Assembly (NCBI RefSeq): GCF_900220975.1
Contig: NZ_OBQD01000033.1
Span: 1 to 40,390 of the forward strand
Source: Rhizobium subbaraonis
GTDB taxonomy: Bacteria; Pseudomonadota; Alphaproteobacteria; Rhizobiales; Rhizobiaceae
DNA length: 40,390 nt
Reading direction: 5' to 3'
This document shows positions 5,222 through 32,044 of the stretch, one piece after another. Numbering within the stretch: position 1 is the stretch's first letter; each line of letters begins with the position of its first letter. A program made the translations under genes and the position numbers. A model generated the notes under the pieces. That model saw only the letters and a list, made by a program, of their open reading frames with translations. It ran no database searches and had not been told where the DNA came from.

Positions 5222-5668
5222 CTAGAGCCCTAAGGCGGCGATCGCCTCATCCATGCGCTCGCGAGCCTTTTTCGGCATCTTCGCGCTTTTGACCGCACCG
5301 ATGTTGGCCGATCCGTCGTCGACGACGACGAGCGCAACCATGCCCATTCCGAAATGCGGCATGCACCTGACACCATAGGCGCCGGGCGTATCGAAGGTGA
5401 CCTTGAGTGTCTCGTTCATCTTGCCCTTGAAGGGCTGGGTACCGTCCGGCAGCAGGCCCGGAAGGGTCTCGGCATTGTGTGACTTGTCCGTGGGGACGAA
5501 GGTTACAGTGTCGCCCCTGGCGATCCTGAGCGACGACGGCTCGAATACCATCGTTCCGTCCCGGCCCTTGTTCAACATATGGATTTCGAAGTCCGCGGCG
5601 AAGGCGTGGCCGCACAGGGCGGCGGCCAGGACTGCCGCGCCGGCGAGGGACCGGGCGATCATGGTCAT
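5222..5668 (-). CDS. Pseudoazurin (periplasmic type I blue copper protein)
   Basis: 148 residues. A Sec signal peptide ends about AFA|ADFEIH (residue 24/25). The type I copper ligands are His64 (KSHNAE), Cys102, His105 and Met110 ([10 protein letters not shown]). Their spacing (38, 3, 5) equals that of classical pseudoazurin (40/78/81/86). AGGAG lies 8 nt before the first ATG, favouring 5668 over the second Met at 5662. The family ferries electrons from the cytochrome chain to copper nitrite reductase, nitrous oxide reductase or other periplasmic acceptors. No denitrification gene is visible beside it, so the partner is unknown. It appears monocistronic, 199 bp downstream of the dhaL end of the polyol operon and on the same strand. 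Confidence 0.93.
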
Positions 5669-5858: not shown

Positions 5859-5878
5859 CCCTCTCCGTCAGGAGAAGG
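5859..5878 (-). terminator. Hairpin straddling the stop codon of the last polyol-operon gene
   Basis: Bases 5859-5866 and 5871-5878 form 8-bp arms with one G-T pair around a 4-base loop, overlapping the stop at 5868. There is no T tract on the minus strand, so it may be an RNA 3'-end stabiliser or a weak terminator. Confidence 0.35.
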
Positions 5879-6506
5879 TATCTCTCATCGCCCGGAGGAT
5901 GATGACGGCGGAGGCGGCACCTGGATCGACATGGCCGAGCGACCGCTCGCCCAGTCTGGCGGCGCGACCGCGGGCAGCGACCATAGAGCGGGTGGAATTC
6001 GCCCCGGTCTCTCCGGCGGCGACGATATCGCGCCACATCTCGTCCGGCTCCGCACCACGCTCGCGCGCTGCGACCGCGGCTTCCATGGCCGGTATCCACG
6101 CATCCAGCATCGTCTTGTCGCCGCGCTGGCCCTTGCCGCGATCCTTGATACCCTGCGCAATAGCCTCGACGATCGCGACCTGTCCTGCAGGCGAAAGGCT
6201 TTCGTCCTGCTTCAGCACCTGGGCCGCCTTGCGGAAGGCGGTGGCATAAAGCGGACCGGTGGAGGCGCCGACGGCATCGAGAAATGCCGACGCGGCGGCA
6301 GAAAGAACCTCCGAGGGAAAGGCCTTGTCGAGATCAAGCTTGGCGACGGCACTGTTCACCGCGGCAAAGCCCAGAGCCATGGTGATGCCATGGTCGGCAT
6401 CGCCCACCGCCCCGTCGAGCTCGGAAAGATGGTCCTTCTCCGCCTGCATGGCCATGGCGATGAGCTGAAACATGCGGCTGAGAAAGCGAGATGCCGATTC
6501 CGCCAT
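5868..6506 (-). CDS. dhaL: Dihydroxyacetone-kinase-type ADP/ATP-binding subunit DhaL (second copy)
   Basis: ATG at 6506 is chosen because GGAGG lies 6 nt upstream and gives the usual DhaL length (212 aa); an upstream extension in frame is not DhaL-like. The nucleotide/Mg-binding aspartates are present at D31, D36 and D38 (ELDGAVGDADHG), and the later motifs are intact (GASTGPLYATAF, GDKTMLDAWIP, ARGRAARLGERSLGHVDPGA). DhaL carries the phosphoryl donor nucleotide and works with a DhaK subunit that holds the ketose. It sits 62 bp after the SorC-DhaK fusion gene, so that DhaK domain is its likely partner. No DhaM/EIIA-type phosphodonor is visible, so either direct ATP use or a PTS protein elsewhere is possible. 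Confidence 0.92.
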   Translation of the reverse strand: MAESASRFLSRMFQLIAMAMQAEKDHLSELDGAVGDADHGITMALGFAAVNSAVAKLDLDKAFPSEVLSAAASAFLDAVGASTGPLYATAFRKAAQVLKQDESLSPAGQVAIVEAIAQGIKDRGKGQRGDKTMLDAWIPAMEAAVAARERGAEPDEMWRDIVAAGETGANSTRSMVAARGRAARLGERSLGHVDPGAASAVIILRAMRDTFS

Positions 6507-6568: not shown

Positions 6569-8665
6569 TCAATTGATCCTGAGGGCGGCGCTATCACAGG
6601 GATACAGCAGCAGATCGGACAGTTCCTGGTCGAGGTGCAGAATGGAAATGGATGCGCCAACCATGTCAAGCGAGGTGCAGTAATGACCAATCCAGTTCGC
6701 CGCAATGGTGATGTTCTTGGCGCTCAGCCTTTGCTCCACGCGGCGGAACAGGATGTAGAGCTCCATCAGCGGCGTTGCGCCGAAGGAATTCACCAGCACG
6801 GCCACCCGGTCACCCGGCTGGGCGTTCATTTCTCCGAAGATCCTATCGATGATCCGGTCGGTGATCTGGTCGGCGCTCATCATCCTGTCGCGCACCACCC
6901 CGCGTTCGCCATGGATCCCCATGCCGATCTCGATGTCGTCGGGACCGATCTCGAAATTGTGACGTCGGGTTTGCGGCAACGAGCATGGCTCAAGCGCAAC
7001 GCCGATCGTAAACGTGCGGTCGTTGGCTTTCCGCGTCACGGCTTCGCACTCGGAGAGCGCCAGGCCACGATCGCATGCTGCACCGGCGATCTTGAACATG
7101 AAGAAATTGCCGGCAACGCCGCGCCTTCCATCCCTGTCTTCGACCGGCGACGAGGCGATGTCGTCTGTGGTCAGCACGGTGCGGACAGGAATGTCTTCCT
7201 CCTGCGCCATCTCAGCCGCCATCTCGAAGTTCATCACGTCGCCGGCATAGTTGCCGTAGACGAAGAGGACGCCTTGCCCGCCCGAGGCGGCGCGTGCGCA
7301 TTCGAGGATGGGGCCGGGGGGAGGGGACGAAAAGATGTTGCCGACGGCAACGGCATCGGCCAGCCCCTTGCCGACATAGCCGAGGAAGCAGGGTTCGTGC
7401 CCCGTTCCGCCCCCGATGACGAGGCCGACCTTGCCGGCGCGGGGCCCCTTGCGGGCGACAAGGGCGCGGTTCGAGCCCTTGATCGGAGTAATATAGTCTG
7501 CATGCGCCTTGAGCACGCCCTCCAGCATCTCGTCGACCACCTGGTCCGGATTGTTGAGGAACTTCTTGATGTGGGTTCGAACATTGCTGGGAAGGGGCAG
7601 GGGGCCTTCGCCCCGCGTGCGCTGGGCCAGCCTCTGGTCAACCTCAGTAACGCCGTCCGCGTTCAGGATTCCCCTGCCTGTCGCAGCATCAGTGATCAGC
7701 ACATTGATGAACCCGCCCCGCAATGCGGCAAGGATTGCCGGCACCTTGTCGAAGCCACCGGCGACTGCGATCCGCATCCCGATCTTCTGCAACATGTCGA
7801 GGGAGATGCCGATCGTCCTCTCGTCGAGCGGGCCGGCGACAGCTCGGCCCTGCGGATCGATGAACCGGCCGGCGACGACGCCGACCGCGTTCTTCGCCAG
7901 ATAGTGCTGGATCGATACGGATTCGAAAAAGCCGCTGGTGTGGATGGTGGAGTTCGGCCGAAGCGAGGAGACGCCGAAGAGCGCCTTGTTTGCGCGGCCG
8001 AGTGCCGCAAACTGCTCTTCGATCAGCGGTTCGCGCAGGAAGGCTGACTGAACTTCGGCGTTGGAAACGATCGCGGGCGCGGCAATGTTGATCAGCTTTG
8101 CGCCGGTCGCCTCCGCCATGGCCGAGGCGCAGAGCTCCGGCGTGTAGGCAAAGCTCGCCCGGGTGCCACCTGTTGCCTGCACGATGGTCACGTCCTGCAG
8201 GCCCGTCACCGCAGTGTTCCCGGCGATCGCAAGGACGGTACGGCCCCAGGCGACGGCAAGGGTATCGCCAGACTTCAAGAGTTTCGCCACCGCCTGCCCG
8301 CCGGCCGTTCCCAGCCGGTCGATAAGCGTGCGCGAACCGTCGTCGCTCGGCACGACGAGACAGTCCAGCAGGCCGAAATGGCGTTTCAGCTCCTGGGCGA
8401 TCGCAAGCGAACTCAGGCGCGAGGGTTCCAGCGAGATGTTGACGATGCCGCGGCTGCGGGCATCGGCAAGGTAACTGTTCACCGTGGCGCGCGAGATACC
8501 CATGATTTCGGCAATGTCGTGCTGGGTGCGGCCTTCCTCGTAATAGAGCCAGCACGCCCAGACATAGGGGTCGTCACCGTAGCGAAGCGGCATCGCGTCC
8601 GCCACGTCCGTCTGCCCGGTCTTTCCGGCCGTCGATTTGCCTGTGGGAGAGGTCTTGCTTGCCAT
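6569..8665 (-). CDS. SorC-family sugar-sensing regulator fused to DhaK kinase subunit
   Basis: 698 residues from ATG at 8665 (GGGA close upstream; an in-frame TTG at 8725 is an alternative). Residues about 33-75 are a helix-turn-helix (QHDIAEIMGISRATVNSYL). Residues about 85-345 are the SorC/DeoR-type sugar-phosphate sensor domain (GGQAVAKLLKSGDTLAVAWG, TGGTRA, GPLDERTIGISL, VAGGFDKVPAI). A short linker leads into a complete DhaK at about 362-698, with GGGTGHEP at 418-425 and the substrate-binding histidine H585 in GMGIHGERG. The regulator part would bind DNA and sense a ketose or ketose phosphate; the DhaK part would bind a ketose covalently through H585. It lies between two dhaL genes. I infer it both controls the operon and supplies a second kinase core. 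I believe automated annotation knows this architecture, but I know of no experiment on it. Confidence 0.92.
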   Translation of the reverse strand: MASKTSPTGKSTAGKTGQTDVADAMPLRYGDDPYVWACWLYYEEGRTQHDIAEIMGISRATVNSYLADARSRGIVNISLEPSRLSSLAIAQELKRHFGLLDCLVVPSDDGSRTLIDRLGTAGGQAVAKLLKSGDTLAVAWGRTVLAIAGNTAVTGLQDVTIVQATGGTRASFAYTPELCASAMAEATGAKLINIAAPAIVSNAEVQSAFLREPLIEEQFAALGRANKALFGVSSLRPNSTIHTSGFFESVSIQHYLAKNAVGVVAGRFIDPQGRAVAGPLDERTIGISLDMLQKIGMRIAVAGGFDKVPAILAALRGGFINVLITDAATGRGILNADGVTEVDQRLAQRTRGEGPLPLPSNVRTHIKKFLNNPDQVVDEMLEGVLKAHADYITPIKGSNRALVARKGPRAGKVGLVIGGGTGHEPCFLGYVGKGLADAVAVGNIFSSPPPGPILECARAASGGQGVLFVYGNYAGDVMNFEMAAEMAQEEDIPVRTVLTTDDIASSPVEDRDGRRGVAGNFFMFKIAGAACDRGLALSECEAVTRKANDRTFTIGVALEPCSLPQTRRHNFEIGPDDIEIGMGIHGERGVVRDRMMSADQITDRIIDRIFGEMNAQPGDRVAVLVNSFGATPLMELYILFRRVEQRLSAKNITIAANWIGHYCTSLDMVGASISILHLDQELSDLLLYPCDSAALRIN

Positions 8666-8709
8666 GGTTCCCTGCGCGTTCCGGCTTTGTGGGGCGAGGA
8701 TGGAAGCAA

Positions 8710-8724
8710 TGCAATGCCATTGCA
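8710..8724. promoter_or_regulatory. Perfect 15-bp palindrome, candidate operator of the fusion gene
   Basis: TGCAATG-c-CATTGCA: 7-bp perfect arms around one base, 45 bp upstream of the ATG at 8665. An extra GCAAT half-site abuts it at 8706-8710. The position and odd symmetry suit a regulator such as the SorC domain acting on its own gene. It lies in the 160-bp gap that separates the first dhaL from the fusion gene. Confidence 0.5.
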
Positions 8725-8759
8725 ATGTTTCTGCGCACTATGCACAAATCAAAGCGTGA

Positions 8760-8779
8760 CCGGGCCGTTGCCAGCCCGG
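8760..8779 (-). terminator. GC hairpin after the first dhaL
   Basis: CCGGGC at 8760-8765 and GCCCGG at 8774-8779 with an 8-base loop, 46 bp past the dhaL stop. On minus it is followed only by scattered Ts, so it could be a partial terminator or a processing site that separates expression of the upstream genes from the fusion gene. Confidence 0.3.
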
Positions 8780-8825
8780 CCACGCCGCCTTGGGAGGCTA
8801 TCGATGCTGCGGACGGTAGCGCCGG

Positions 8826-9467
8826 CTATTGCAGCCGGTCGCGCGCTCCTTCCGACAATTCCTTCAAAATGATGGCGCAGGACGTTGCGCCGGCGTCCAA
8901 GACGCCGAGCGAGCGCTCGCCCAGGCGGCTGGCACGGCCGATCTTGGCAACGAGATTGATTGTCGAATCCCGGCCGGTCTCGGCCGCGGCCACCAGCGCA
9001 TCAAGGGCTTCGCCGAAGGACTTGCCGTCGGCAGCCGCCGCGTCGAAGGCTTCGACTGCGGGCACGAAGGTGTCCAGCAGCGTCTTGTCGCCGACCTTCG
9101 CCGAACCGATCGACTGGATACCTTCGAGGCCGGCATGCAGCATGCGGCTGTAGGCGGCAGCGTCGATCGCGTCCACGCCCTCCAGTTTTTCGGCGAACTC
9201 GGTGAACATCACCCCGTAGAGCGGGCCCATCGAGCCGCCGATCTCCGTCATCAGGATGGTGCCGAGCGTCTCCAGCGACGCTGCGAGAGAAAGGTCCTTG
9301 CCCTTCAGCCGTTCGGCGGCCATGCCGAAGCCCTTGGCCATGTTGACGCCATGGTCGCCATCGCCGATCTTGCCGTCGATCTCGCTCAGATAGGCGCGGT
9401 TTTCAACGATGCGATCGGCCATGGCGAGCACGATGCCCCCAGCGCTGGCATTGTTCAGTGTCTGCAT
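8826..9467 (-). CDS. dhaL: Dihydroxyacetone-kinase-type subunit DhaL (first copy)
   Basis: 213 residues; AAGGAGG lies 7-8 nt before the ATG. The aspartate triad is D31, D36, D38 (EIDGKIGDGDHG), followed by MTEIGGSMGPLYG, VGDKTLLDTFVP and RASRLGERSLGVLDAGA. It starts 12 bp after the end of the stand-alone dhaK and should form the DhaK-DhaL pair with it. The protein is clearly divergent from the second DhaL in this operon, suggesting that the two pairs act on different substrates or in different roles rather than being a recent duplication. Confidence 0.93.
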   Translation of the reverse strand: MQTLNNASAGGIVLAMADRIVENRAYLSEIDGKIGDGDHGVNMAKGFGMAAERLKGKDLSLAASLETLGTILMTEIGGSMGPLYGVMFTEFAEKLEGVDAIDAAAYSRMLHAGLEGIQSIGSAKVGDKTLLDTFVPAVEAFDAAAADGKSFGEALDALVAAAETGRDSTINLVAKIGRASRLGERSLGVLDAGATSCAIILKELSEGARDRLQ

Positions 9468-9479
9468 TGATCCGCCTCC

Positions 9480-10472
9480 TTACAAAACGGTGGTGCAACG
9501 GACCTCGACGTCGAGAAGCTCTTTCAGTTCCGAATCGAGAGCCATCACGGTGAGGGTTGCGCCGACCATTTCGAGCGATGTGAAGTAATTGCCCACATAG
9601 GTCTTGTAGATTTTCAGGCCGCGCGCGCTGATTTCCTGCTCGATCGTGTCGTTGAGGATGTAAAGCTCGTTGATCGGCGTGGCGCCGAGGCCGGAGACGA
9701 GGACGGCCACTTCGGTGCCGGCCGGCAGGTCATGATCGTCGAGGACGATCTTGCACATGTCCTTGGCAACCTCTGCGGCGGTCTTCAGCGGCTCGACTCG
9801 GACGCCCGGCTCGCCGTGATGGCCGATGCCCACTTCCATGGTGCCGGGCTCGATCTGGAAGTTCGGATGGCCGACGGCCGGCAACGTGCAGGGGCCGAGG
9901 CCTACGCCGATCGAACGGCAGCTGTCGATCGCCTTCTGGGCGGTGACGCGCACTTCCTCCAGCGTCGCGCCGGTGGCAGCCTTGGCGCCGCCGATCTTCC
10001 ACATGAAGATTTCGCCGGCAACGCCGCGCCGCTTCTCGCGCTCTTCAGGCGGAGCGGAGCAGACGTCGTCGTTGGCCACGACCGTCGCGATGTCGATGCC
10101 GTCCTTGGCCGCCAGTTTGGTGGCCATTTTGACGTTCATGTTGTCGCCGGCATAGTTGCCGTAAAGCACGATCACGCCCTTGCCGCCGTTGGCCTCGCGA
10201 ATGGCGTCGTGGAAGCTCTTCGCGGTCGGCGACGAGAAGAGCTCGCCGACGGCTACCGCATCCAGCATGTTCTTGCCGGTGTAACCGATGAAGGCCGGCT
10301 CGTGGCCGGACCCGCCGCCGGTGACGACGCCGACCTTGCCGACGATCGGCGCGTTCCTGGCTGCGACGACGCGGGGGTTTTCGGCCAGGCGGACGATATC
10401 CGAATGGGCCTTGACGAAGCCGCTCACGGTATCTTCTACGACCAGGTCCGGATTGTTGACGAAACGCTGCAT
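9480..10472 (-). CDS. dhaK: Dihydroxyacetone/tetrulose kinase substrate subunit DhaK
   Basis: 330 residues, AGGAG 5 nt before the ATG. It has GGGSGHEP at 52-59 and the covalent ketose-binding histidine in GIGHHGEPG (H219, preceded by H218), plus the dimer/substrate motifs VLYGNYAGD and RRGVAGEIFMWKI. DhaK binds a short ketose as a hemiaminal and phosphorylates its terminal hydroxyl, using the nucleotide on DhaL. In mycobacteria, relatives (LerK, DerK) phosphorylate erythruloses rather than dihydroxyacetone. With a GolD/DthD dehydrogenase 28 bp upstream, a C4 or C5 ketose is as likely a substrate as dihydroxyacetone. Confidence 0.94.
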   Translation of the reverse strand: MQRFVNNPDLVVEDTVSGFVKAHSDIVRLAENPRVVAARNAPIVGKVGVVTGGGSGHEPAFIGYTGKNMLDAVAVGELFSSPTAKSFHDAIREANGGKGVIVLYGNYAGDNMNVKMATKLAAKDGIDIATVVANDDVCSAPPEEREKRRGVAGEIFMWKIGGAKAATGATLEEVRVTAQKAIDSCRSIGVGLGPCTLPAVGHPNFQIEPGTMEVGIGHHGEPGVRVEPLKTAAEVAKDMCKIVLDDHDLPAGTEVAVLVSGLGATPINELYILNDTIEQEISARGLKIYKTYVGNYFTSLEMVGATLTVMALDSELKELLDVEVRCTTVL

Positions 10473-10500
10473 GTTAACTCCTGTGGAACGGGCGTGCGGC

Positions 10501-11274
10501 TTAGAGGATCGTATAGCCGCCGTCGATCAGCAGATCGGCGCCGTTGATCATGTCTGCGCCGGCCGAGGCGAGGAAGACGGCGGCGGCGGCAATTTCCTGC
10601 GGATAGGCGAACCGGCCTGCCGGAATTCGCTTCTTGGCGGCTTCGCCCTTCTCGCCGGACCATGCCTTCTTGCCGAGTTCGGTCAGGACGATGGTCGGCG
10701 AGATCGTGTTCACGCGGATGCCATGCTTGCCCCATTCGGCGGCAAACGTCTTGGACATGCCGATGACGCCGAACTTCGAGGCGCAATAGGCGACGTGCTC
10801 CTCGATCGCAACCGTGCCGGCCTGGGATGCGAGGTTGACGATCTTGCCGCCCTTGCCGGCCGCGATCATCGCCTTGCCGACCGCCTGGGTGACGAGGAAA
10901 CTGCCCTTGAGATTGATGTTGATGGTCTTGTCCCAGTCGCCGAGGGAAAGGTCTTCGGCGGGCGCGAGGAAGACGACGCCGGCGCTGTTGACGGCGATGT
11001 CTATGCCGCCGAAGGCGGCGACGACGCCGGCGACGGCCTCATTCACCGACTGGGGGTTCGATACGTCGCAGACAAACGGCTTCGCGTCGTCTCCCAGCGC
11101 GTCGGCCTTGGCCTTCGCAACGTCGGCGTTGATGTCGAGGACGGCGACCTTGGCGCCCTTGGCGATGAAGGCTTCGGAGATCGCGGCGCCAATGCCGGAC
11201 GCTCCGCCCGTCACCAGGGCGACTTTGCCGGACAGCGGGAAGTTCAGGTCAATTTCTGGAGCGGTATCGGTCAT
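10501..11274 (-). CDS. GolD/DthD-type polyol short-chain dehydrogenase
   Basis: 257 residues from ATG 11274; a longer in-frame start at 11334 adds non-family residues. Classical SDR: TGGASGIG at 22-29, Asp47 after the second strand (predicts NAD over NADP), NSAG at 96-99, catalytic Ser150, Tyr163, Lys167 (VAYCASK). The C-terminal part (ISPTIVLTELGKKAW, PAGRFAYPQEIAAAA, DMINGADLLIDGGYTI) matches my memory of the GolD (D-arabinitol dehydrogenase) and DthD (D-threitol dehydrogenase) family. Expected reaction: polyol plus NAD to a 2-ketose. It lies between the binding protein and dhaK, so its product would feed the kinase. Confidence 0.9.
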   Translation of the reverse strand: MTDTAPEIDLNFPLSGKVALVTGGASGIGAAISEAFIAKGAKVAVLDINADVAKAKADALGDDAKPFVCDVSNPQSVNEAVAGVVAAFGGIDIAVNSAGVVFLAPAEDLSLGDWDKTININLKGSFLVTQAVGKAMIAAGKGGKIVNLASQAGTVAIEEHVAYCASKFGVIGMSKTFAAEWGKHGIRVNTISPTIVLTELGKKAWSGEKGEAAKKRIPAGRFAYPQEIAAAAVFLASAGADMINGADLLIDGGYTIL

Positions 11275-11340
11275 TGTCTTGCAAGCCTCGATCTTGTCAT
11301 GGGGTGCGGGACGGCATGGCCGTCCCGCGTTCATCTTCGT

Positions 11341-12327
11341 TTACTGGCGCGACTCGATCAACTTGTCGGCGTTGTCGGTGGTGACAGGGGTCCACGGTAC
11401 ATTGTAGTTCTTGTCCTTGCCGTCGTTGAACGGCATGTCCGGATACTGGGCCCAGATGTCGGACTGCGGCTTGTAGTCGCCCTTCCTGGCGTGGAAGATC
11501 GCCAGATCGAGCGCACCCTGAGCCTGCGCACGGGCGTCCTGAAGGATCGAGGTCATCGTGCCTTCCTTGACGGCATTCAGTGCATCCGTGATGCCGTCGA
11601 TGCCGGCAATGGCGAAGTCGCCGACGTTCAGCTTGGCAGCCTTGATGGCTTCGATGGCGCCCAGCGCCATCTCGTCATTCTGGCCGATGACGCCGTTGAT
11701 CTGGCCGGGATGCGCCGTCAGCCAGTTTTCCATCAGCGTCTGAGCTTCAGCACGCGACCAGTTGGCGGTCTGCTGTTCGAGAACCTTGACGTCCGGGCAC
11801 TCGGCAAGCGCCTTCTGGTTGCCTTCGAGGCGGGAGATCTGCGAGGACTGGCCGATCGGGCCTTCGAGGATGACGACGTTGCCCTTGCAGCCGATCTTGT
11901 CCAGAACCGTCTTGGCTTCCATGTAGCCGGAAACGGTGTCGTCGGAGCCGACATAGGCGGCAAGCAGGTCGGAATTAACACGGGTGTTGGAGCCGACGAC
12001 CGGGATACCGGCTTCGTAGGCAGCCTGGACGGCGGTCGCGCCGGCCTCGACGTCGATCGGCACGAAGACGATCGCGTCGAACTGCTGCGTGATCATCGTG
12101 TTGAACTGTTCCTGCTGGACCAGCGCATCGTAGCGACCGTCGAAGACCGTCAGTTCGACTTCGCCGCTCTTGACGGCCGGGTGCTGCTCGAGTGCGGCGG
12201 ACCAGATCTGCATGAATTCGGCATTCAGGCCGTAAGGGGCCGCGCCGATCTTCAGCTTGTCCTGCGCCAGGCCAGGCGATGCCATGAGTGCCGTGGCGGC
12301 AGCCAGCGCAATCAAAAGTTTCTTCAT
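11341..12327 (-). CDS. Periplasmic sugar/polyol-binding protein (RbsB-like, Peripla_BP_4)
   Basis: 328 residues; GGAGGAG 7 nt before the ATG. Signal peptide MKKLLIALAAATALMASPGLAQ, then a ribose-binding-protein fold with FVPIDVEAGATAVQAAYEAGIPVVGSN, the hinge region VVILEGPIGQSSQISRLEGNQKAL and GVIGQNDEMALGAIEAIKAA. It delivers the substrate to the permease encoded upstream. The gene follows the ATPase and permease genes, the reverse of the ribose operon order. The ligand cannot be read from sequence; the polyol dehydrogenase and ketose kinases suggest a small polyol. Confidence 0.92.
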   Translation of the reverse strand: MKKLLIALAAATALMASPGLAQDKLKIGAAPYGLNAEFMQIWSAALEQHPAVKSGEVELTVFDGRYDALVQQEQFNTMITQQFDAIVFVPIDVEAGATAVQAAYEAGIPVVGSNTRVNSDLLAAYVGSDDTVSGYMEAKTVLDKIGCKGNVVILEGPIGQSSQISRLEGNQKALAECPDVKVLEQQTANWSRAEAQTLMENWLTAHPGQINGVIGQNDEMALGAIEAIKAAKLNVGDFAIAGIDGITDALNAVKEGTMTSILQDARAQAQGALDLAIFHARKGDYKPQSDIWAQYPDMPFNDGKDKNYNVPWTPVTTDNADKLIESRQ

Positions 12328-12381
12328 TATCAGTCTCCTCCATTGGGATTCCGGCCACCGACGCGGTGCACCGTTCTATGC

Positions 12382-12400
12382 ACGGGTGATAGACACCCGT
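12382..12400 (-). other. Intercistronic hairpin between permease and binding-protein genes
   Basis: ACGGGTG and CACCCGT form a perfect 7-bp stem with a 5-base loop in a 94-bp gap. There is no T tract. Such hairpins often protect or process mRNA so that the binding protein is made in excess over the membrane components. Confidence 0.5.
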
Positions 12401-12421
12401 ATTTCTTGAAAAGCTTCGGGG

Positions 12422-13426
12422 TCAGCCGCCCATGTTGCGCTTCTGGTCGAGCATGACGGCGCCGACGATCAGGGCTCCCTTGAGGACCTGCTGGTAGTAG
12501 GACTGGATTCCCATCAGATCGAGGCCGTTGTTCATGACACCGATGATCAGGGCGCCGATCAGCGTGCCCGTAATGCGACCCACGCCGCCCGAAAGGCTGG
12601 TGCCGCCGATGACGACCGCCGCGATCGCATCGAGCTCGTAGGCGATACCGGCCTGGGGCAGGGCGGAGCCGGTGCGCGCCGACAGGATCATGCCGGCAAG
12701 TCCGGACAGGCCGCCGGAAATCACATAGACCGAAAAGCGCAGGCGGCTGACATTGATGCCCGACGTGTTGGCGGCATGCGGATTGCCGCCGACGGCATAG
12801 ATGTAACGGCCGAAGCGGGTGCGGTTGAGCACGTACCAGGACACCAGGAACACCACGGCGAAGAGCACGACGGGCATCGGCACGCCGAAGACGCTGCCGG
12901 TACCGATCCAGCGGAAGTCGGGCGTCAGCGCCGGCACGGGCTTGCCGCCACCATAGATCAGCGTCATGCCGCGTGCAGCCGACAGCATGCCGAGGGTGGC
13001 GACGAAGGCCGGGACCGAAAAGCGTGACACGATGATGCCAACGATCGCGCCGCAGGCGATGCCAACGAAAAGGCCGATCGGCAGAGCGACGAAGGGCGAG
13101 TACGGCGCGCCGACGATGCCGGCGGTTGCCGAGGTCGTGGCGAAGCTTGCAGAGACGATGCCGGCGAGTGCCACGACGGAACCGACGGAAAGGTCGATGC
13201 CACGCGTCAGGATGACGAAGGTCATTCCGATCGCGAGAATTCCGTTGATGGACGTCTGCAGCAGGACGTTGGAGATGTTGCCCGGCGTCAGGAAGTACTG
13301 GTTCGACACCGAAAGGATGAAGGCCAGCAGCAGGAAGGCGAGAAAGATGCCGTATTCCTGGATGATCAGCCTGCGGCGGTCCGAACCCAGCCAGGCCGTG
13401 GATGAATTGTTATCTGTCGTGGACAC
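12422..13426 (-). CDS. Sugar/polyol ABC transporter permease (RbsC-like)
   Basis: 334 residues from a GTG start at 13426 with AGAGGA about 7 nt upstream. About eight to ten hydrophobic spans. RbsC-family signatures include GMTFVILTRGIDLSVGSVVALAG, RFSVPAFVATLGMLSAARG, YAVGGNPHAANTSGI and VIGGTSLSGGVGRITGTLIGALIIGVMNNGL. The protein forms the channel, probably as a homodimer, with the RbsA-like ATPase whose gene ends 51 bp upstream. Confidence 0.94.
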   Translation of the reverse strand: MSTTDNNSSTAWLGSDRRRLIIQEYGIFLAFLLLAFILSVSNQYFLTPGNISNVLLQTSINGILAIGMTFVILTRGIDLSVGSVVALAGIVSASFATTSATAGIVGAPYSPFVALPIGLFVGIACGAIVGIIVSRFSVPAFVATLGMLSAARGMTLIYGGGKPVPALTPDFRWIGTGSVFGVPMPVVLFAVVFLVSWYVLNRTRFGRYIYAVGGNPHAANTSGINVSRLRFSVYVISGGLSGLAGMILSARTGSALPQAGIAYELDAIAAVVIGGTSLSGGVGRITGTLIGALIIGVMNNGLDLMGIQSYYQQVLKGALIVGAVMLDQKRNMGG

Positions 13427-13477
13427 TTGGGTTTCCTCTCTCGTACCGGACGTTTGTTCTGCAGTCCGGCTTGCCGC

Positions 13478-14956
13478 TTAGGTGGACAGATGGACGAGCG
13501 ATTGCGCGTCCGTCTCTTCCCTGCGGAAAATTCCGGCTGAACGGCCTTGGCGCATCACCAGGATGCGGTCGGACATGCCGAGCACTTCGTCGATCTCCGA
13601 CGAGATCATGACGACCGTTCCGCCCTGTTCGGCGAAATCGCAGATAATGCGATAGATCTCCCGCTTGGCCCCCACATCCACGCCACGGGTCGGCTCGTCG
13701 AGGAGCAGGACCTTCGGGTTGCGCAGGAACCACTTGCCAAGCACGACCTTCTGCTGGTTGCCGCCCGAAAGGCCGGATACCGACATGGTGTCGCGCGCCG
13801 CCTTGATGGCGAAGCGCTTGATCATGTCCTGGCTGGCCGCCATCTCCATCCGCCGGTTCATCGAAAAGCGCGGGCTCATCTCCGGCAGGCTGGCCAGGCA
13901 GATGTTATTGCGCACGCTGTCGGTGAGGTTGAGGCCGGTGAGCTTCCGGTCCTCGGTGACGAAGGCCAGCCCGCGCGCCATCGCATCCGCGGGCCTTGAG
14001 ACCGAAATCGCCTCGCCATCCAGCTTGATGCCGCCTTCCGAAGCGGTGTCGAGGCCAAACAGGCAGTTGAAGATTTCCGTGCGGCCGGATCCCATGAGAC
14101 CGTAGATGCCAAGGATTTCGCCCTTGTGGGCGGTAAAAGAGATATCCTTTATCTTGCCGGGAATGGTCAGGTTCGAGACCTCCAGGCCGGCAATGCCGGT
14201 GGGCGCGTTCGTCTTGATGTATTCCTCGCCGAGCTCGCGCCCGACGATCATGCGGATCAGTTCGGGCCGGTCGATGTCGGCCAGGTTGCCGCTGCCGACG
14301 TAGCTGCCGTCGCGGAAGACGGTGTAGGCATCGGCGATCTGGAAGATCTCCGAGAGCCGGTGGGAGACATAAACGATCGCCTTGCCCTCGGCCTTCAGGC
14401 GCTCGATCGCCGAAAACAGCTGCTGGGCTTCCTTCTCGCCGATCGCCGACGTCGGCTCGTCCATGAAGATGACTTCGGCGTCATGGCTGAGCGCCTTTGC
14501 AATTTCGACGAGCTGCACCTGCGCGACCGAAAGGTTCATCATGAACTGGTTGGCGCGGATGTCGAATTCCAGCCGATCGAGAAGCGCCTGCGCATTCCGG
14601 TTCATCGTCTTGAAGTCGATGCCGCCGAAGCGCGCTGACGGCTCGCGGCCGAGATAGATGTTCTCGGCCACGGTCATGTGCGGGATCGGGCTGAGTTCCT
14701 GTTCGATGATGGCGATGCCTGCGGCCAGCGCCTCAGCCGGCGTCGAATAGGCGACCTCCTGGCCACGGCGACGGATGTGGCCGCCATCGCGCGTCAGGAT
14801 GCCCATCAGGATCTTCAGGAAAGTGGATTTGCCGGCGCCGTTGCCGCCGCAAAGGGCGTGCACGGACCCCGCACGCAATTGTAGGCGGCCGTTTCGCAGG
14901 GCTGCGACACCACCAAAGGACTTCTGCAGTCCTTCCACGTCTAGCAGGTATTCCAA
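13478..14956 (-). CDS. Sugar/polyol ABC transporter tandem ATPase (RbsA-like), TTG start
   Basis: I place the start at TTG 14956 because AGGAGGAG lies 5-6 nt upstream and the protein then begins at the family N-terminus (492 aa); an in-frame start at 15028 only adds unrelated residues. Two ABC domains: Walker A GGNGAGKS at 37-44 with a degenerate first signature (LSVAQVQLVEIAKAL), and a second domain with the degenerate GLMGSGRTE loop but intact LSGGNQQKVVLGKW and LLLDEPTRGVD. This asymmetry is normal for the RbsA/MglA/AraG class. It energises the permease encoded immediately downstream and is the first gene of the operon. Confidence 0.9.
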   Translation of the reverse strand: MEYLLDVEGLQKSFGGVAALRNGRLQLRAGSVHALCGGNGAGKSTFLKILMGILTRDGGHIRRRGQEVAYSTPAEALAAGIAIIEQELSPIPHMTVAENIYLGREPSARFGGIDFKTMNRNAQALLDRLEFDIRANQFMMNLSVAQVQLVEIAKALSHDAEVIFMDEPTSAIGEKEAQQLFSAIERLKAEGKAIVYVSHRLSEIFQIADAYTVFRDGSYVGSGNLADIDRPELIRMIVGRELGEEYIKTNAPTGIAGLEVSNLTIPGKIKDISFTAHKGEILGIYGLMGSGRTEIFNCLFGLDTASEGGIKLDGEAISVSRPADAMARGLAFVTEDRKLTGLNLTDSVRNNICLASLPEMSPRFSMNRRMEMAASQDMIKRFAIKAARDTMSVSGLSGGNQQKVVLGKWFLRNPKVLLLDEPTRGVDVGAKREIYRIICDFAEQGGTVVMISSEIDEVLGMSDRILVMRQGRSAGIFRREETDAQSLVHLST

Positions 14957-15021
14957 CGTCTCTCCTCCTGATCGGCCCGTGGAGCGAGCCGCCGATGGAC
15001 AGAACTCGGCCGCCATCGACG

Positions 15022-15056
15022 TTGACAATATTCAACATGCTATCGACAAATGTCAA
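15022..15056 (-). promoter_or_regulatory. Candidate operon promoter with two phased dyads
   Basis: On minus, TTGACA (15051-15056), a 17-bp gap and GAATAT (15028-15033) form a plausible promoter 70 bp upstream of the TTG start. Two 14-bp dyads overlap it: 15043-15056 (TTGACATTTGTCGA, GACA/TGTC arms) over the -35, and 15022-15035 (TTGAnnATnnTCAA) over the -10. Their centres are 21 bp apart, two helical turns. This is typical of a repressor or inducer-responsive regulator site. Confidence 0.55.
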
Positions 15057-15360
15057 TAGGAAGCAGACTCTAAGACCAAGACACTGTAATCACTTCGTTT
15101 TCTTCAACGCAGCAACAGGCAGCGCAAGGGTAGCCGCTCTGACGCATGGCTTCTGAAAAGTCAAACCTCGGGGTAGACGCGTGGGTGAGATCGGCGCTCC
15201 CACGCACTGCAGCCCCAAATCCGTCTTGATCCGGATGTTTGGAGGTCCGCCGAAAAATATCTGAGATGCCCGTAATACGATCGCCAACTTCGGCTGGCGT
15301 CTTCTAGCCGAAGGAACTACTCGAACGACCGACAAACCGTGCTGGGAATGGAAGGACGCG
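15057..15360. other. Intergenic scar, no recognisable gene
   Basis: Short frames exist on both strands, but none has family resemblance or a credible start. A 7-bp inverted repeat (TTCGGCT 15289-15295, AGCCGAA 15306-15312) lies 50 bp before the IclR remnant and could be part of its old promoter or operator. Base composition is less GC-biased than in the flanking operons, consistent with decayed sequence. Confidence 0.45.
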
Positions 15361-15647
15361 ATGGATCACGCGGATGAGACGTTCACGGACGAGGACGCCG
15401 GGCCTGACCCTCGTCTTTTCGTCGCTTCGGTTGCGCGTGCCGCAGGGGGGTGTCCATTACCGAGAAAATGGAAGACGTGGACAGCATCTCTCTTTCGGCT
15501 CCTGTTTTTGCGGGCCGTGACGAGCCTGTCGGTGCGATCAACATATCAACGTTGAAATCACGATTCTCAAAGCTTCAGGCGGAGCGCAAGCTGGCAGTCG
15601 ATCTCATTGCGTCTGCACGGGAAGCTTCTCAGGTGGTTTCGAGATAG
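15361..15647 (+). pseudogene. IclR-family regulator remnant with internal deletion
   Basis: ATG at 15361 opens 27 residues ending DPRLFVASVARA, the usual entry to an IclR helix-turn-helix domain. At about 15443-15450, in a run of Gs, the frame jumps. From about 15451 a different frame encodes SITEKMEDVDSISLSAPVF, GRDEPVGAINISTLK and LQAERKLAVDLIASA, a typical IclR C-terminus ending at 15647. About 180 residues (rest of the DNA-binding domain plus most of the effector domain) are missing and the halves are out of frame. It may once have regulated one of the flanking catabolic operons. Confidence 0.6.
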
Positions 15648-15903: not shown

Positions 15904-16779
15904 TTACATTGGTGCGGACGCGAGTTTGCGGGCAATGTCGAAGAATGCGTTGACAAGCTTGCCGTTAGCGCGCTCGCGCAGGCAGATGAGGGCTTCATCC
16001 ATCAGCATCTCGGGTGCATCTATCTCTATAGGAACGAGGCGACTGTCCTGTCCGAATTCTGCGGAGGAGACAAAGCCTATACCTCCGCCTGCTGCGACGA
16101 TTTCCCGGACGGCCTCGCGACCCTCCGCCTGGATAAGCGGAGTCAGAGGCACGCCGCATTGCTCTGCCATGATTTCGAGTTTCTGGCGGGTCTTGGAGCC
16201 CCGTTCGCGCATGACCAGAGGGTGCTGTGCAAGCTCGGAGAACGATATCCTCTTCGTGTCCCCCAACGGGTAATCGCGGCTTGCAAATGCGATAATCGGT
16301 GTCGAGTTCAGCTTGAGAACCTCAAAATCGCTGGACTGGGGAATCTCGCCAAGCACGCCAATATCCGCTTCATAAGCATGCAAGCTGGTGGTGACCGTTT
16401 CCGTGTTGCCGGCGTCGATCGAGACCTGCACTGATGGGTAGGCACGGCGGAAGGCGGCGAGGATGTGCAGGAGGTGGTGGGCAGCGTCGGCGACGATGCG
16501 CAGCTTCCCAGCGCGGAGCGCTCGCGATTCAGACAGGAGGTCGAGCGCCTGCTGCTCGACGTCGAACATGCGGCGGGTGATTTCGAGAAGCTGCTGGCCG
16601 GCCTGGGTCAGCGTCACCTGCTTCTTGTTGCGGTTGAAGAGCAGGACGTCATATTCCTCCTCCAACTTGCGCACCTGATCCGACACCGCCGGCTGGGTGA
16701 GGAACAGCGCCTCGGCGGCGCGCGAAAAGCCCCCGTGGATGGCCACGTTGTGAAAGGCTCGGAGTTGCACATAGCGCAT
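15904..16779 (-). CDS. LysR-family regulator of the aminoethylphosphonate cluster
   Basis: 291 residues. N-terminal winged helix-turn-helix at 1-60 (HGGFSRAAEALFLTQPAVSDQVRKLEEEYDV), then the LysR substrate-binding domain from about 88. It is transcribed divergently from the Na/Pi transporter and phn genes across a 115-bp gap, the standard arrangement for a LysR activator of the adjacent operon. The box at 16811-16832 in that gap recurs upstream of phnW and the importer. An inducer such as AEP or phosphonoacetaldehyde is inferred, not shown. No Shine-Dalgarno is obvious at the start. Confidence 0.92.
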   Translation of the reverse strand: MRYVQLRAFHNVAIHGGFSRAAEALFLTQPAVSDQVRKLEEEYDVLLFNRNKKQVTLTQAGQQLLEITRRMFDVEQQALDLLSESRALRAGKLRIVADAAHHLLHILAAFRRAYPSVQVSIDAGNTETVTTSLHAYEADIGVLGEIPQSSDFEVLKLNSTPIIAFASRDYPLGDTKRISFSELAQHPLVMRERGSKTRQKLEIMAEQCGVPLTPLIQAEGREAVREIVAAGGGIGFVSSAEFGQDSRLVPIEIDAPEMLMDEALICLRERANGKLVNAFFDIARKLASAPM

Positions 16780-16810
16780 GAGGGAAAGCTTTCGATAGCT
16801 TCAGTCTATG

Positions 16811-16832
16811 CATTTATTAAAAGGAACGATTT
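16811..16832. promoter_or_regulatory. AEP-cluster box A (lysR/Na-Pi divergent promoter)
   Basis: A 22-bp AT-rich element, CATTTAT followed by AAAGGAACGATTT, identical at 19 of 22 positions to box B at 18568-18589. It lies 31 bp from the LysR start and 62 bp from the Na/Pi gene start. Confidence 0.55.
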
Positions 16833-16894
16833 GATTTATGTAAAGCGGCAAAAGATAAATTGGGGATTTCCACTCTCCTTGCGGAGCGCGCCCC

Positions 16895-18547
16895 ATGAAT
16901 CTTCCGGCCGTCGCCCTTGAGCTTGCCGCCGCCACCGTCCTTTTGCTCTACGCCGTCAGCCTGGTGAAGAAGGGCGTCGAAGCGGCCTCGGGCGATATGG
17001 TGGCGCGCACGGTCGGCGGTGGCGGGGGAAGGCTGCGCGCCGCCTTCTACGGCTGTCTCGTGGCAATCGCCCTGCAAAGCTCGACGGCGGTCGCAATGCT
17101 CGCGGCCGGCTTTGCTGTCAGCGGCGCGCTGGCGCTCGATGCGGGGCTCGCGGTGCTGCTCGGCGCCGATCTCGGCTCGGCGCTGGTTGTCAAGATTCTG
17201 TCCTTCGACCTGCACTGGCTGGCGCCGCTGCTCATAGCCGGCGGCGGTCTGCTCCACCTGAAGGCGCGTTCGCGCAAGGCGATCGAAGCCGGACGCTCCG
17301 TGCTCGGCATCGGCCTCCTGCTCTTGTCGCTGCAGATGATCGGCCATGCCACGCTGCCGCTGGCGCAAAGCCCGCTGCTGCCGTCCGCCATCGCCTATCT
17401 CGGTAAGGACGGGCTGACGGTGATGATCCTGGCGGCCGTCTTCACCTGGGCGCTACACTCCAGCGTGGCGGCGATCCTGCTCATCCTGACCTTCGCGGCG
17501 AAGGGCATCGTGCCGCTCGATGTCGGCATTCCGCTGGTCCTCGGCGTCAATCTCGGCGGCGGGCTGATTGCGCTGTGGCTAACCCGCGGCCTGCCGGTCG
17601 AGGGGCGGCGCCTGCCGCTGGGCAACCTTCTGTTCCGCGGGCTGTTCAGCGCCGCGATCTTCGCGCTTTTTTCGCTGCATGCGCCGTTCGACTGGTTACC
17701 CGGCGATACGGTCGCCGCCAGGCTCGTCAACCTGCATGTGCTTTTCAACGCCGTGCTCGTCGTCATCGGGCTTGTCGGCTGCGGCCTGATGGGACGTTTT
17801 GTCCGGCTTCTCACGCCGGAAGCAACGGGCGCGGGCGACCTGACGGCTCATGTCAGCGCGCTCGACCGCTCGCTGATCGACAAGCCGGCGCAAGCGCTTG
17901 CTGCCGCAGCGAGGGAAGTACTGCATATGGGCAACCTCATCACCCGGATGCTGGAGCCGCTCATGACGGTCATCCAGTCGCCGACGCCGGAAACGGTACA
18001 GGCGCTTCGGCGCGTGGACGGCGATATTCATCGGGCTCATAGCGAGATCAAGCTCTATATCGCGGCGGTCAACCGCGGCGTGCTCACCGAGGAGCAATCC
18101 CGGCGCGGTATCGAACTGACCGAGGCGGCGATCCATCTCGAATATGCCGGCGACGTGGTCGCAAAGAACCTGCTGCAGATTGCGCAGGAGCGCCTGGAAG
18201 GCGCAGGGGCCTTTTCACAGGAAGGCTGGCGGGAACTGACGCTGCTGCATGGCGCGGTGTTTTCCAATGTCCGGCTCGCCGCCAATCTGCTCGTCTCGCC
18301 CGATCCCGTCATCGCCCGCGAGATGGTGCGGCAGAAGGAGTATGTGCGCCATCTCGTGCAGACAAGCAGCAAGAACCATCTCGAGCGTCTGCGTCAGGGC
18401 CTTGCCGCCTCCATCCAGTCCAGCGACATGCATCTGGAGATCGTGCGCGCGCTGAAGGAGGTCAATTCGCTGGTCACGACCATGGCCTATCCGCGCCTGC
18501 GCGAGACCGGCGACCTCCTGGAAAGCCGCCTGGTGCCGGCGGCATAG
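16895..18547 (+). CDS. Na/Pi-cotransporter family protein with PhoU-like tail
   Basis: 550 residues, GGAG about 9 nt before the ATG. Two Na_Pi_cotrans repeats: the first carries the family QSST motif at 61-64 (ALQSSTAVAML), the second a variant LHSS at about 186-189. About eight membrane spans are followed by a soluble PhoU-like helical region, about residues 320-540. Members of this family move phosphate; the E. coli relative YjbB acts as a phosphate exporter. Located between the LysR gene and phnW, it may discard the phosphate freed by PhnA. Import is the alternative. Confidence 0.9.
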   Translation: MNLPAVALELAAATVLLLYAVSLVKKGVEAASGDMVARTVGGGGGRLRAAFYGCLVAIALQSSTAVAMLAAGFAVSGALALDAGLAVLLGADLGSALVVKILSFDLHWLAPLLIAGGGLLHLKARSRKAIEAGRSVLGIGLLLLSLQMIGHATLPLAQSPLLPSAIAYLGKDGLTVMILAAVFTWALHSSVAAILLILTFAAKGIVPLDVGIPLVLGVNLGGGLIALWLTRGLPVEGRRLPLGNLLFRGLFSAAIFALFSLHAPFDWLPGDTVAARLVNLHVLFNAVLVVIGLVGCGLMGRFVRLLTPEATGAGDLTAHVSALDRSLIDKPAQALAAAAREVLHMGNLITRMLEPLMTVIQSPTPETVQALRRVDGDIHRAHSEIKLYIAAVNRGVLTEEQSRRGIELTEAAIHLEYAGDVVAKNLLQIAQERLEGAGAFSQEGWRELTLLHGAVFSNVRLAANLLVSPDPVIAREMVRQKEYVRHLVQTSSKNHLERLRQGLAASIQSSDMHLEIVRALKEVNSLVTTMAYPRLRETGDLLESRLVPAA

Positions 18548-18567
18548 TTTCATAAGTTAAAACGATA

Positions 18568-18589
18568 CATTTATACAAAAGAACGATTT
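18568..18589. promoter_or_regulatory. AEP-cluster box B (phnW promoter)
   Basis: Matches box A at 19 of 22 bases, with core GAACGATTT at 18581-18589. A second CGAT copy (AACGATAC, 18561-18568) lies 21 bp upstream of the core, giving two direct half-sites two helical turns apart. It is about 60-80 bp before the phnW ATG, in a strongly AT-rich gap of 102 bp. No CTGTCAT-type PHO box is visible. Confidence 0.55.
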
Positions 18590-18649
18590 TACATATATAT
18601 CTTTCCACTGCATTGTCGGTCTCGGATATGCCAAACGTGAGGACGGACC

Positions 18650-19852
18650 ATGCCGAACACCGCTTCTGACAGCACCAGCGCGCCCCTTGAAACGCCGAGA
18701 CTCGGCGAGCCTTACCTTCTCACTCCGGGCCCGCTGACGACGGCTTACGAAGTCAAGGAAGCGATGCTGCGGGACTGGGGTTCCTGGGACGGCGCCTTCC
18801 GCGCCATGACGGCAAGACTGCGCCGTGAACTGCTCGATATCGCCGGGGACATGGCTGGCGAGTTCGACTGCGTGCCCATGCAGGGCAGCGGCTCCTTCTC
18901 GGTGGAGGCCATGCTCGGCAGCTTCGTGCCGAAGGACGGCAAGGTTCTGGTGCTGAGCAACGGCGCCTACGGCAAACGCATCGCCCAGACGCTGTCCTAT
19001 CTCGGCCGCGACCATGCGGTGATCGACAAGGGCGACTACATGCCGCCGCGCGGGACCGAAGTAGCAACAGCGCTCGATGCCGATCCGGCGATTAGCCATG
19101 TCGTAGTGGTTCATTGCGAAACCAGCTCCGGCATCCTCAATCCGTTGAAGGAAATCTCCGACACCGTCTATGCTCATGGCCGCAAGCTGCTGGTCGATTC
19201 GATGAGCGCCTTCGGCGCCGTGCCCGCCCGTGTTTCCGATTTCCGCTACGAGGCGATCGTCTCGTCGGCCAACAAGTGCATCGAAGGCGTGCCGGGCTTC
19301 GGTTTCGTCATCGCCCGCAAGAGCGAACTGGAGGCCGCCAAGGGCCGCAGCCACTCGCTCAGTCTCGATATCCACGCCCAGTGGGATTACATGAACAAAA
19401 GCGGCCAGTGGCGCTTCACGCCGCCGACCCACGTCGTCGCCGCCTTCTTGGAGGCACTGCGCATCCATCGTGAGGAAGGCGGCGTCGCGGCCCGCGGCGC
19501 GCGCTACGCCCGCAACCGCGACGTCATGGTGGCAGGTATGCGCGAAGCCGGCTTCGAGACGCTCTTGGCCGACCAGTGGCTCTCGCCGATTATCGTCACC
19601 TTCTTCAGCCCGGCCCACCCGGCCTTCGCCTTCGACCGCTTCTACGATCTCATGAAGGACAAGGGCTTCATCATCTACCCCGGCAAGCTGACGGTGGTGG
19701 ACAGCTTCCGGGTCGGCTGCATCGGCCGCATGGACGAGCATGTCATGCGCCGCGTGGTGGACGCCGCCCGCTCCTCGCTTGCCGAAATGGGCGTCGACAA
19801 TGCCGCGCCCCCGGCCATTGCCCTTGAAGAACGCAGCCGCCTTGCAGCCTAG
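18650..19852 (+). CDS. phnW: 2-Aminoethylphosphonate:pyruvate transaminase
   Basis: 400 residues, GAGGA 7 nt before the ATG. Class V aminotransferase fold with LLTPGPLTT at the N-terminus, the cofactor-binding aspartate in LLVDSMSAFGA (Asp183) and the PLP lysine K209 in SSANKCIEGVPGF. These are the hallmark motifs of PhnW, which converts AEP plus pyruvate to phosphonoacetaldehyde plus alanine. The next two genes oxidise and hydrolyse the product, and no phnX (phosphonoacetaldehyde hydrolase) is present, so this is the PhnWAY route. PhnA begins 20 bp after the stop. Confidence 0.96.
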   Translation: MPNTASDSTSAPLETPRLGEPYLLTPGPLTTAYEVKEAMLRDWGSWDGAFRAMTARLRRELLDIAGDMAGEFDCVPMQGSGSFSVEAMLGSFVPKDGKVLVLSNGAYGKRIAQTLSYLGRDHAVIDKGDYMPPRGTEVATALDADPAISHVVVVHCETSSGILNPLKEISDTVYAHGRKLLVDSMSAFGAVPARVSDFRYEAIVSSANKCIEGVPGFGFVIARKSELEAAKGRSHSLSLDIHAQWDYMNKSGQWRFTPPTHVVAAFLEALRIHREEGGVAARGARYARNRDVMVAGMREAGFETLLADQWLSPIIVTFFSPAHPAFAFDRFYDLMKDKGFIIYPGKLTVVDSFRVGCIGRMDEHVMRRVVDAARSSLAEMGVDNAAPPAIALEERSRLAA

Positions 19853-19872
19853 TGCAATATAGGATTCTTTCG

Positions 19873-21135: not shown

Positions 21136-21145
21136 GGAGGCAGCG

Positions 21146-22600: not shown

Positions 22601-22633
22601 TCTGAGCAATCCCCTGCTGGATCGCCCATTCCG

Positions 22634-22660
22634 GGAGCCGCTCCGTGCGGCTCCTTTTTT
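22634..22660 (+). terminator. Rho-independent terminator after phnY
   Basis: GGAGCCGC (22634-22641), 5-base loop, GCGGCTCC (22647-22654), then six Ts. Perfect 8-bp GC-rich stem, 33 bp past the phnY stop. Confidence 0.95.
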
Positions 22661-22742
22661 GTTGCTCGCAGGAGGGCAGGGCAGGGCGTCGGCGGCAAAA
22701 ATTCTGGCTTAAATGCCTGTTTTAACGGCAAATAACATATAG

Positions 22743-22763
22743 CTTTTATCTTGTGAACGATAA
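22743..22763. promoter_or_regulatory. AEP-cluster box C (importer promoter)
   Basis: CTTTTATCTTGTGAACGAT at 22743-22761 shares TTTAT and the GAACGAT core with boxes A and B, with spacing one base shorter, and contains the inverted repeat TTATC/GATAA (22746-22750/22759-22763). It is in the AT-rich leader of the AEP binding-protein gene, about 130 bp upstream of its ATG. Confidence 0.45.
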
Positions 22764-22894
22764 GAATAATAAATTTTACTTACCGAAAACCCCTGCGCAG
22801 AATGCCTCGTGAAGCCGAACTTCATAAGGTCGACACCTAGATCGACCGCCGTGCTTCCCGGATTTTTCCAGGCCTTCAGAGGAGTTTTTAGATC

Positions 22895-23917: not shown

Positions 23918-23998
23918 TCGTGATCGACGGGGCGGGACGCTTTCGTGCCTCGCCCCGCGCATTCTCGAAGATTGCCTGACAGCCAACGGAGCTTGCAG

Positions 23999-28521: not shown

Positions 28522-28692
28522 TGTCGTCTCCCGATCTGGAAAATCATTTTGAGCAGAATGGGAAAAAGAATTACATAAAGCAACATTAAACAACATATAG
28601 CGCCACAATCTGGTATGAGATGCTCTATAGCGGCCGTATTCTTGACCCAGCGGAGGGGCGAGTTTCACGCTCAGCTTGTCAAAGCGACAAAA

Positions 28693-29493: not shown

Positions 29494-29498
29494 CGAAA

Positions 29499-29518
29499 TG
29501 TAATTTTCTGTAATTTTT
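29499..29518. promoter_or_regulatory. Two 10-bp direct repeats ahead of the FAD-GcvT gene
   Basis: TGTAATTTTC then TGTAATTTTT, exactly one helical turn apart, starting 5 bp after the DeoR stop and 63-82 bp before the next ATG. They are markedly AT-rich within GC-rich DNA. Candidate operator for the DeoR or GlxA-type regulator, or an UP-element. Confidence 0.4.
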
Positions 29519-29580
29519 TGTCTTGTTCTTTGACGGCGTTTTGTTACCGTGCGGCCTCCATCTTTTTCGGAGATCGTTTC

Positions 29581-32031: not shown

Positions 32032-32044
32032 CGGCATATCCTCG

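Follow-up and report, generated by a model that had tools for sequence, protein, structure and literature searches.

A SorC-type regulator fused to a putative DhaK kinase subunit in Rhizobium subbaraonis, a candidate trigger enzyme

Results and discussion

A SorC regulator and a complete DhaK are encoded in one open frame

The window analyzed here is the whole 40,390-nucleotide stretch of contig NZ_OBQD01000033.1 from Rhizobium subbaraonis (assembly GCF_900220975.1). Its minus strand carries an operon for sugar transport and ketose kinase-type proteins, followed by a gene in which a regulator and a DhaK are joined:

13478–14956, minus strand: sugar ABC ATPase (RbsA-like), likely start TTG 14956 after ggaggag, downstream of the candidate operator
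12422–13426, minus strand: sugar ABC permease (RbsC-like; profile matches)
11341–12327, minus strand: periplasmic sugar-binding protein (RbsB-like; profile matches)
10501–11334, minus strand: short-chain dehydrogenase (SDR), GolD/DthD family (NF005309, 413.4 bits, cut-off 286)
9480–10472, minus strand: DhaK1, a second complete DhaK, motif GHHGE instead of GIHGE (profile match, alignment)
8826–9467, minus strand: DhaL1 (TIGR02365, above cut-off)
6569–8665, minus strand: SorC-DhaK fusion gene, 698 amino acids, ATG at 8665
8441–8548, minus strand: helix-turn-helix (HTH) part of the fusion, residues 40–75 (Pfam match)
7661–8410, minus strand: SorC sugar-binding domain PF04198, residues 86–335 (Pfam, E 7e-59)
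7562–7657, minus strand: linker joining the halves, residues 337–368 (alignments)
6572–7561, minus strand: DhaK half, residues 369–698, bearing H423, D476 and H585 (Pfam, alignments)
5868–6506, minus strand: DhaL2, likely start ATG 6506 after ggagg (TIGR02365, above cut-off; Mg/ADP-site aspartates kept)

The fusion gene reads from 8665 to 6569 on the minus strand as a single open frame with no internal stops in translation, and the encoded 698 amino acid protein runs from the HTH through the SorC sugar-binding domain and a variable linker to a complete DhaK. The regulator half has the architecture of the SorC family, an HTH followed by PF04198 (199.5 bits, cut-off 27), as found in DeoR, LsrR, CggR and SorC, and aligns over residues 35–335 to the DeoR, LsrR and SorC chains. 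The closest solved chains are DeoR (8r7y), LsrR (4go1) and SorC (2w48); unlike the fusion, the solved SorC-family chains as matched lack a kinase half. Among 82 aligned fusions, 26 of the 44 residues of the HTH region (37–80) are invariant.

The Dak1 domain (PF02733) spans residues 382–693 with an E-value of 1e-115 and 386.2 bits against a cut-off of 31.4. When aligned with E. coli DhaK, H585 corresponds to the His of GIHGE while H423 and D476 correspond to the His of GGGSGHEP and the Asp of NYTGD. We take the E. coli counterparts of H585, H423 and D476 to be H218, H56 and D109, with their respective active-site roles. The His-His-Asp active site of a DhaK kinase subunit is thus present in the fusion, and all three residues are invariant both in the 82 aligned fusions and in a broader alignment whose 103 rows comprise 92 distinct sequences. 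Together with the single frame, this invariance bears out the claim of a first-pass annotation of the window that one polypeptide is both a regulator and a catalytically complete DhaK. The fusion scores below the NCBIfam cut-off of every DhaK model (dhaK1 equivalog TIGR02363, 374.8 of 406.25 bits), and its DhaK half also stays below that of the DhaQ model (TIGR02362, 210.6 of 413.25 bits). We strongly infer that the fused DhaK half is a kinase. A structure of the fusion predicted from 50 sequences had a mean pLDDT of 54.9 and a pTM of 0.44, a quality too low for use.

The fusion is accompanied by a dedicated DhaL and by a second kinase

Neighboring genes were counted in 82 loci with a full fusion (L009–L090 minus L017, plus the window). 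DhaL2 lies beside the fusion in 81 of them, the exception (L048) being cut by a contig end. The GD.DHG aspartates are kept in 91 of 91 rows for DhaL2 and in 88 of 89 rows for DhaL1, the remaining one being a gap row, so the DhaL partner with Mg/ADP-binding aspartates expected of a DhaK subunit is encoded next to the fusion. DhaK1 and DhaL1 are likewise found near the fusion in 81 of 82 loci (not in L089). The active site of DhaK1 is complete (89 rows), and DhaK1 also falls below the TIGR02363 cut-off (346.8 bits). Its GHHGE motif is invariant in 89 aligned rows, E. coli DhaK having GIHGE; the His adjoining the covalent His may reflect a different substrate. In two loci (L110 and L124), the fusion and one DhaL2 are the sole Dha kinase genes matched within 19.9 kb. 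Since no other DhaK was matched in that stretch, the kinase in these loci, if there is one, must be the fusion.

An RbsA/RbsC/RbsB-type transporter and the SDR are encoded near the fusion in 74 of 82 loci, and the other eight have a transporter of a different kind or none matched. No isomerase is present among the operon's genes examined. The GolD/DthD-type SDR, together with the gene neighbors of an unfused close DhaK relative (L112:7388-13061), points to small polyols and ketoses as putative substrates. In the latter locus, the DhaK gene has triosephosphate isomerase-family, DUF1537-type kinase and RuBisCO-like genes as neighbors, a setting that hints at a pathway for four-carbon sugars. Pathways for D-threitol and erythritol in Mycobacterium smegmatis were reportedly described by Huang and colleagues in 2015.

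Directly after DhaL2 lies a pseudoazurin gene (5222–5668; TIGR02375, above cut-off), which among the loci compared was matched beside the fusion elsewhere solely in L011 and the near-identical L091. The rest of the window contains a phosphonate cluster (15904–27189), each member of which scores above its NCBIfam cut-off. It includes a LysR of the aminoethylphosphonate type, phosphonoacetate hydrolase (19852–21135), phosphonoacetaldehyde dehydrogenase (21146–22600) and an aminoethylphosphonate ABC transporter (23945–27189). Positions 27478–39346 resemble a region for metal-chelate uptake, with genes for an AraC-type regulator, two Peripla_BP_2 binding proteins, a methyltransferase and ABC ATPases. 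PADLOC returned no match.

The fusion is conserved across rhizobia and its regulator halves form one clade

Relatives were collected by a contig scan with residues 1–378 (regulator half plus linker) as query. The 80 loci compared are the best 80 of 144 relatives found in this way and are therefore not a random sample. The full fusion lies in one open frame in 79 of these 80 loci, the remaining one (L017) stopping at a contig edge, and identity to the window protein ranges from 97% to about 70%. A sequencing frameshift, which the first-pass annotation had itself raised as an objection, consequently cannot account for the fusion. One annotation might suggest an artefact of this kind or a fusion with a decayed half: in the Roseibium record NZ_CP045628.1 (H87), positions 445403–447450 are annotated as two genes, whereas the sister records H86 and H88 show one fused gene. 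The frame kept across the loci and the invariance of both the catalytic residues and the HTH-region residues refute such an artefact for the window, making it scarcely credible as an explanation.

Full-length fusions were also found elsewhere at 54–68% identity, and 109 of 1017 matching plasmid records cover at least 80% of the fusion. The homologue of Sinorhizobium meliloti 1021 (L009) is located on pSymB. Genomes were also sampled in three draws, which overlap in part and whose strict E-value limits would miss distant fusions. The fusion was present at full length in 5 of 398 genomes of the phylum (limit 1e-110), in 14 of 297 genomes of the order and, among 385 genomes of the class, solely in the window's own (limit 1e-130). 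The distribution is patchy and mainly within the order, with two cases of the phylum draw coming from another family of the class.

The SorC halves of the fusions, including a contig-cut member, form one clade (support 94/95), next to which an unfused SorC neighbor from L122 groups with weak support (83/52). In the tree of DhaK halves, the fused label needs two changes, with L093 and L124 placed beside an unfused DhaK group; either two fusions of a neighboring gene pair or one fusion followed by splitting may have yielded this tree. L122 (7338–9506) encodes a SorC and a DhaK of the same kind as separate adjacent genes with a Shine-Dalgarno sequence between them, likely representing an ancestral or split state. 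As the two proteins are separate neighbors there, fusion appears to be dispensable for function.

These observations bear on whether the joining matters at all. Two neighboring genes could have fused neutrally, with regulator and kinase working independently and the tether merely ensuring 1:1 expression and perhaps placing the kinase at the operon. The unfused pair in L122 with its intervening ribosome-binding site would agree with this, as would L117 and L118, where a separate SorC gene adjoins a DhaK-DhaL gene, and the linker, whose length varies from 29 to 39 residues (103 aligned rows). However, the fusion persists down to about 50–60% identity and across many gene orders, and the fused SorC halves need one ancestor only; had the joining been neutral, more frequent splits would be expected. 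We thus consider an inconsequential tether unlikely.

A conserved candidate operator accompanies the fusion

Four elements in the intergenic regions are relevant to regulation:

15022–15056, minus strand: conserved candidate operator, two imperfect 14-bp palindromes with starts 21 bp apart (motif scans)
15027–15056, minus strand: best promoter-like site of 8500–15400, TTGACA-18-AATATT, 10 of 12 (promoter scan)
8753–8786, minus strand: 15-pair hairpin after dhaL1, possible terminator with a weak T tail (folding scan)
8697–8725, minus strand: conserved promoter-like element of the fusion gene, TTGCAA-17-CATCCT (TTGCAA 8725–8720, CATCCT 8702–8697)

The core GACA-2-TGTC is common to 73 of 77 regions upstream of the operon's first gene, and the left half of the operator, TTGACATTTGTCGA, is matched at at least 12 of 14 bases in 70 of these 77 regions. 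At up to three mismatches, the full element occurs at a single place in the 6.58 Mb assembly (reversed-pattern control, 0), and no shuffle of the window yields a match. The half-site occurs at five other places in the genome at one mismatch (reversed control, 1). A matrix built from 64 distinct sites reaches the threshold of 15 bits in 87 of 91 fusion loci. No site reaches this threshold in L062 (8637 N), L111 (13.7 bits), L123 (7.9) and L128. Most scored loci were used to build the matrix, so the 15 fusion loci outside it are more informative. Of these, 13 score 21–57 bits, with a largest shuffled score of 6.9, and L123 and L128 are the two misses. Eleven of these 13 sites adjoin a transporter, DhaK1, SDR or fusion gene. 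In contrast, no operator score exceeds -5 in the 11 loci where the DhaK relative is unfused (L112–L122). The 15022–15056 site proposed in the first-pass annotation is therefore exact, conserved and unique in the genome.

A matched gene adjoins 85 of the 87 scoring sites (not in L089 and L125), and 74 sites stand before the ABC ATPase gene as in the window. Elsewhere, the site is found before DhaK1 (L009, L048, L076, L127), between DhaK1 and a divergent permease gene (L037, L066, L086), before the SDR (L109), before a different transporter (L083) or between the fusion and a divergent gene for SBP_bac_1, a solute-binding protein of another class (L110, L124). It is the transport/SDR/DhaK1 unit, not the fusion, that follows the operator in L083, L109, L126 and L127. 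In L110 and L124, the operator stands before the fusion itself, which would consequently regulate its own gene. As the operator is kept when the transporter changes and is absent from loci with unfused DhaK, it travels with the fusion and not with the transporter. This pattern strongly suggests that the SorC half binds 15022–15056, the predicted operator.

The best promoter-like site lies wholly within the operator; three other sites in 8500–15400 reach 9 of 12, shuffles averaging 1.4. Because of this placement, the regulator is read as a repressor, and repression is probably, though not certainly, its mode of action as opposed to activation. The fusion gene appears to have an element of its own: TTG(C/A)A-16/20-CAT.(C/T)T is present in 56 of the 82 gaps before the fusion gene (shuffled mean 0.0), and hairpins in the gaps have a mean best energy of -29.1 kcal/mol versus -19.0 kcal/mol for shuffled sequence, 69 of 82 gaps lying below all 10 shuffles, both counts coming from related loci that are not independent. 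The region has five terminator-like sites, which is not an excess over shuffled sequence (5.3). Readthrough from the operon promoter could reach the fusion in the 74 of 91 loci where it is encoded downstream of the operon.

A further palindrome at 8710–8724, overlapping the promoter-like element of the fusion gene, had been put forward as another site for the fusion. It is perfect, which none of 100 shuffles achieved, but the pattern was chosen post hoc. Of the loci scanned, only the nearest relatives L011 and L091, possibly one genome, also have it beside the fusion gene. We therefore rejected it as a conserved or general operator; it may be a site specific to this lineage.

The fusion as a candidate trigger enzyme

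We propose that the fusion acts as a trigger enzyme, serving both as a local repressor of the SorC type and as a working DhaK subunit with DhaL2, and assign this sequence-based reading a probability of roughly 0.55. In the uninduced cell, its own promoter would provide a low level of the fusion and DhaL2, and the SorC half, bound to the double palindrome at 15022–15056, would cover the -35 and -10 elements of the transport/SDR/DhaK1/DhaL1 operon. A small polyol that enters the cell would be oxidized by the SDR, and the product would be a triose or tetrose ketose, for instance dihydroxyacetone or erythrulose. The fused DhaK would hold this ketose on H585 for phosphorylation by DhaL2-ATP, and the resulting ketose phosphate, formed beside the SorC half, would act as the inducer that frees the operator, after which DhaK1-DhaL1 would take the bulk flux. 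With two kinases and two promoter-like elements, a division of labor fits in which the fusion and DhaL2 may represent a low-level starter and sensor while DhaK1-DhaL1 and the transporter would make up the induced unit.

SorC relatives with solved structures (DeoR, LsrR, CggR) respond to phosphorylated sugars. The Lys of the DeoR QLKGG motif, presumably the Schiff-base residue, is replaced by Thr165 in the fusion (Thr in 91 of 92 distinct sequences). This makes a covalent inducer of the aldehyde type unlikely, while a ketose phosphate fits. That the inducer is the pathway's own ketose phosphate may be given somewhat less than even odds. More tentative is the idea of a self-inducing repressor, in which the ketose phosphate made by the fused kinase frees its own SorC half so that the protein reads local kinase flux and not the cell pool. 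This idea depends on a putative link between kinase activity and DNA binding. The variable linker favors a flexible tether over a rigid allosteric rod, although both are compatible with it.

The link could also be more direct, as the first-pass annotation had it: a ketose on H585, or docking of DhaL2 with ATP or ADP, would alter how tightly the SorC half binds DNA, all within one chain. Conservation of the three catalytic residues would suit such a covalent-ketose sensor, and E. coli DhaK and DhaL, according to what Bachler is said to have shown in 2005, act on the regulator DhaR. DhaR belongs to another protein family than SorC. Kinase subunits are thus functionally linked to the operon regulator in E. 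coli, as proposed for the fusion, but DhaR is separate from DhaK while the regulator in the window is SorC-type and covalently joined. A DhaK homologue with a regulatory function is known from Lactococcus lactis, where DhaQ (solved structure 2iu4) is a separate protein paired with the TetR-type regulator DhaS. The fused half, in contrast, falls far short of the DhaQ model. In addition, a complete catalytic site and a retained DhaL2 exceed what a sensor needs, the linker is long and variable, and the SorC sugar-binding domain would sit idle, all of which makes a sensor of this type unlikely when compared with a trigger enzyme that is also a working kinase. E. coli DhaR is activated by dihydroxyacetone according to the accessible part of PMC6643234.

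Relation to known systems and implications

The protein itself has a name in RefSeq, 'bifunctional sugar-binding transcriptional regulator/dihydroxyacetone kinase subunit DhaK'. One entry so named, WP_223730486.1 from Ensifer adhaerens, represents the same protein in the same gene order with 75.6% identity over the whole length. Unlike the name of an experimentally characterized system, this one was assigned automatically, and we found no functional study of the fusion in the open-access literature. The earlier view of an undescribed system thus holds with regard to function in that literature, but not with regard to the protein, which RefSeq already names as bifunctional.

The accessible parts of two papers describe enzymes that are also DNA-binding regulators: the trigger enzymes PutA, BirA, NadR, PepA and PyrH (PMC8249747) and archaeal RbkR, an enzyme that also regulates by binding DNA (PMC8305020). 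By its domain order in one frame, the fusion likewise combines catalytic and DNA-binding modules in one protein. In these parts, neither a SorC regulator nor a Dha kinase is named among trigger enzymes, and the accessible part of PMC4777399 mentions neither SorC nor rhizobia.

Enzymes that double as regulators form a small known class, and the fusion unites a sugar-kinase subunit with a SorC regulator in one chain. Many rhizobia, and some other Alphaproteobacteria, retain it alongside differing transporters. In this soil bacterium and many of its relatives, the apparent switch of the operon is therefore physically part of a pathway enzyme. The system is suited to asking whether a regulator can sense how active its attached enzyme is, as opposed to the concentration of a metabolite, and because a candidate operator and a partner protein are defined, this question is accessible in vitro.
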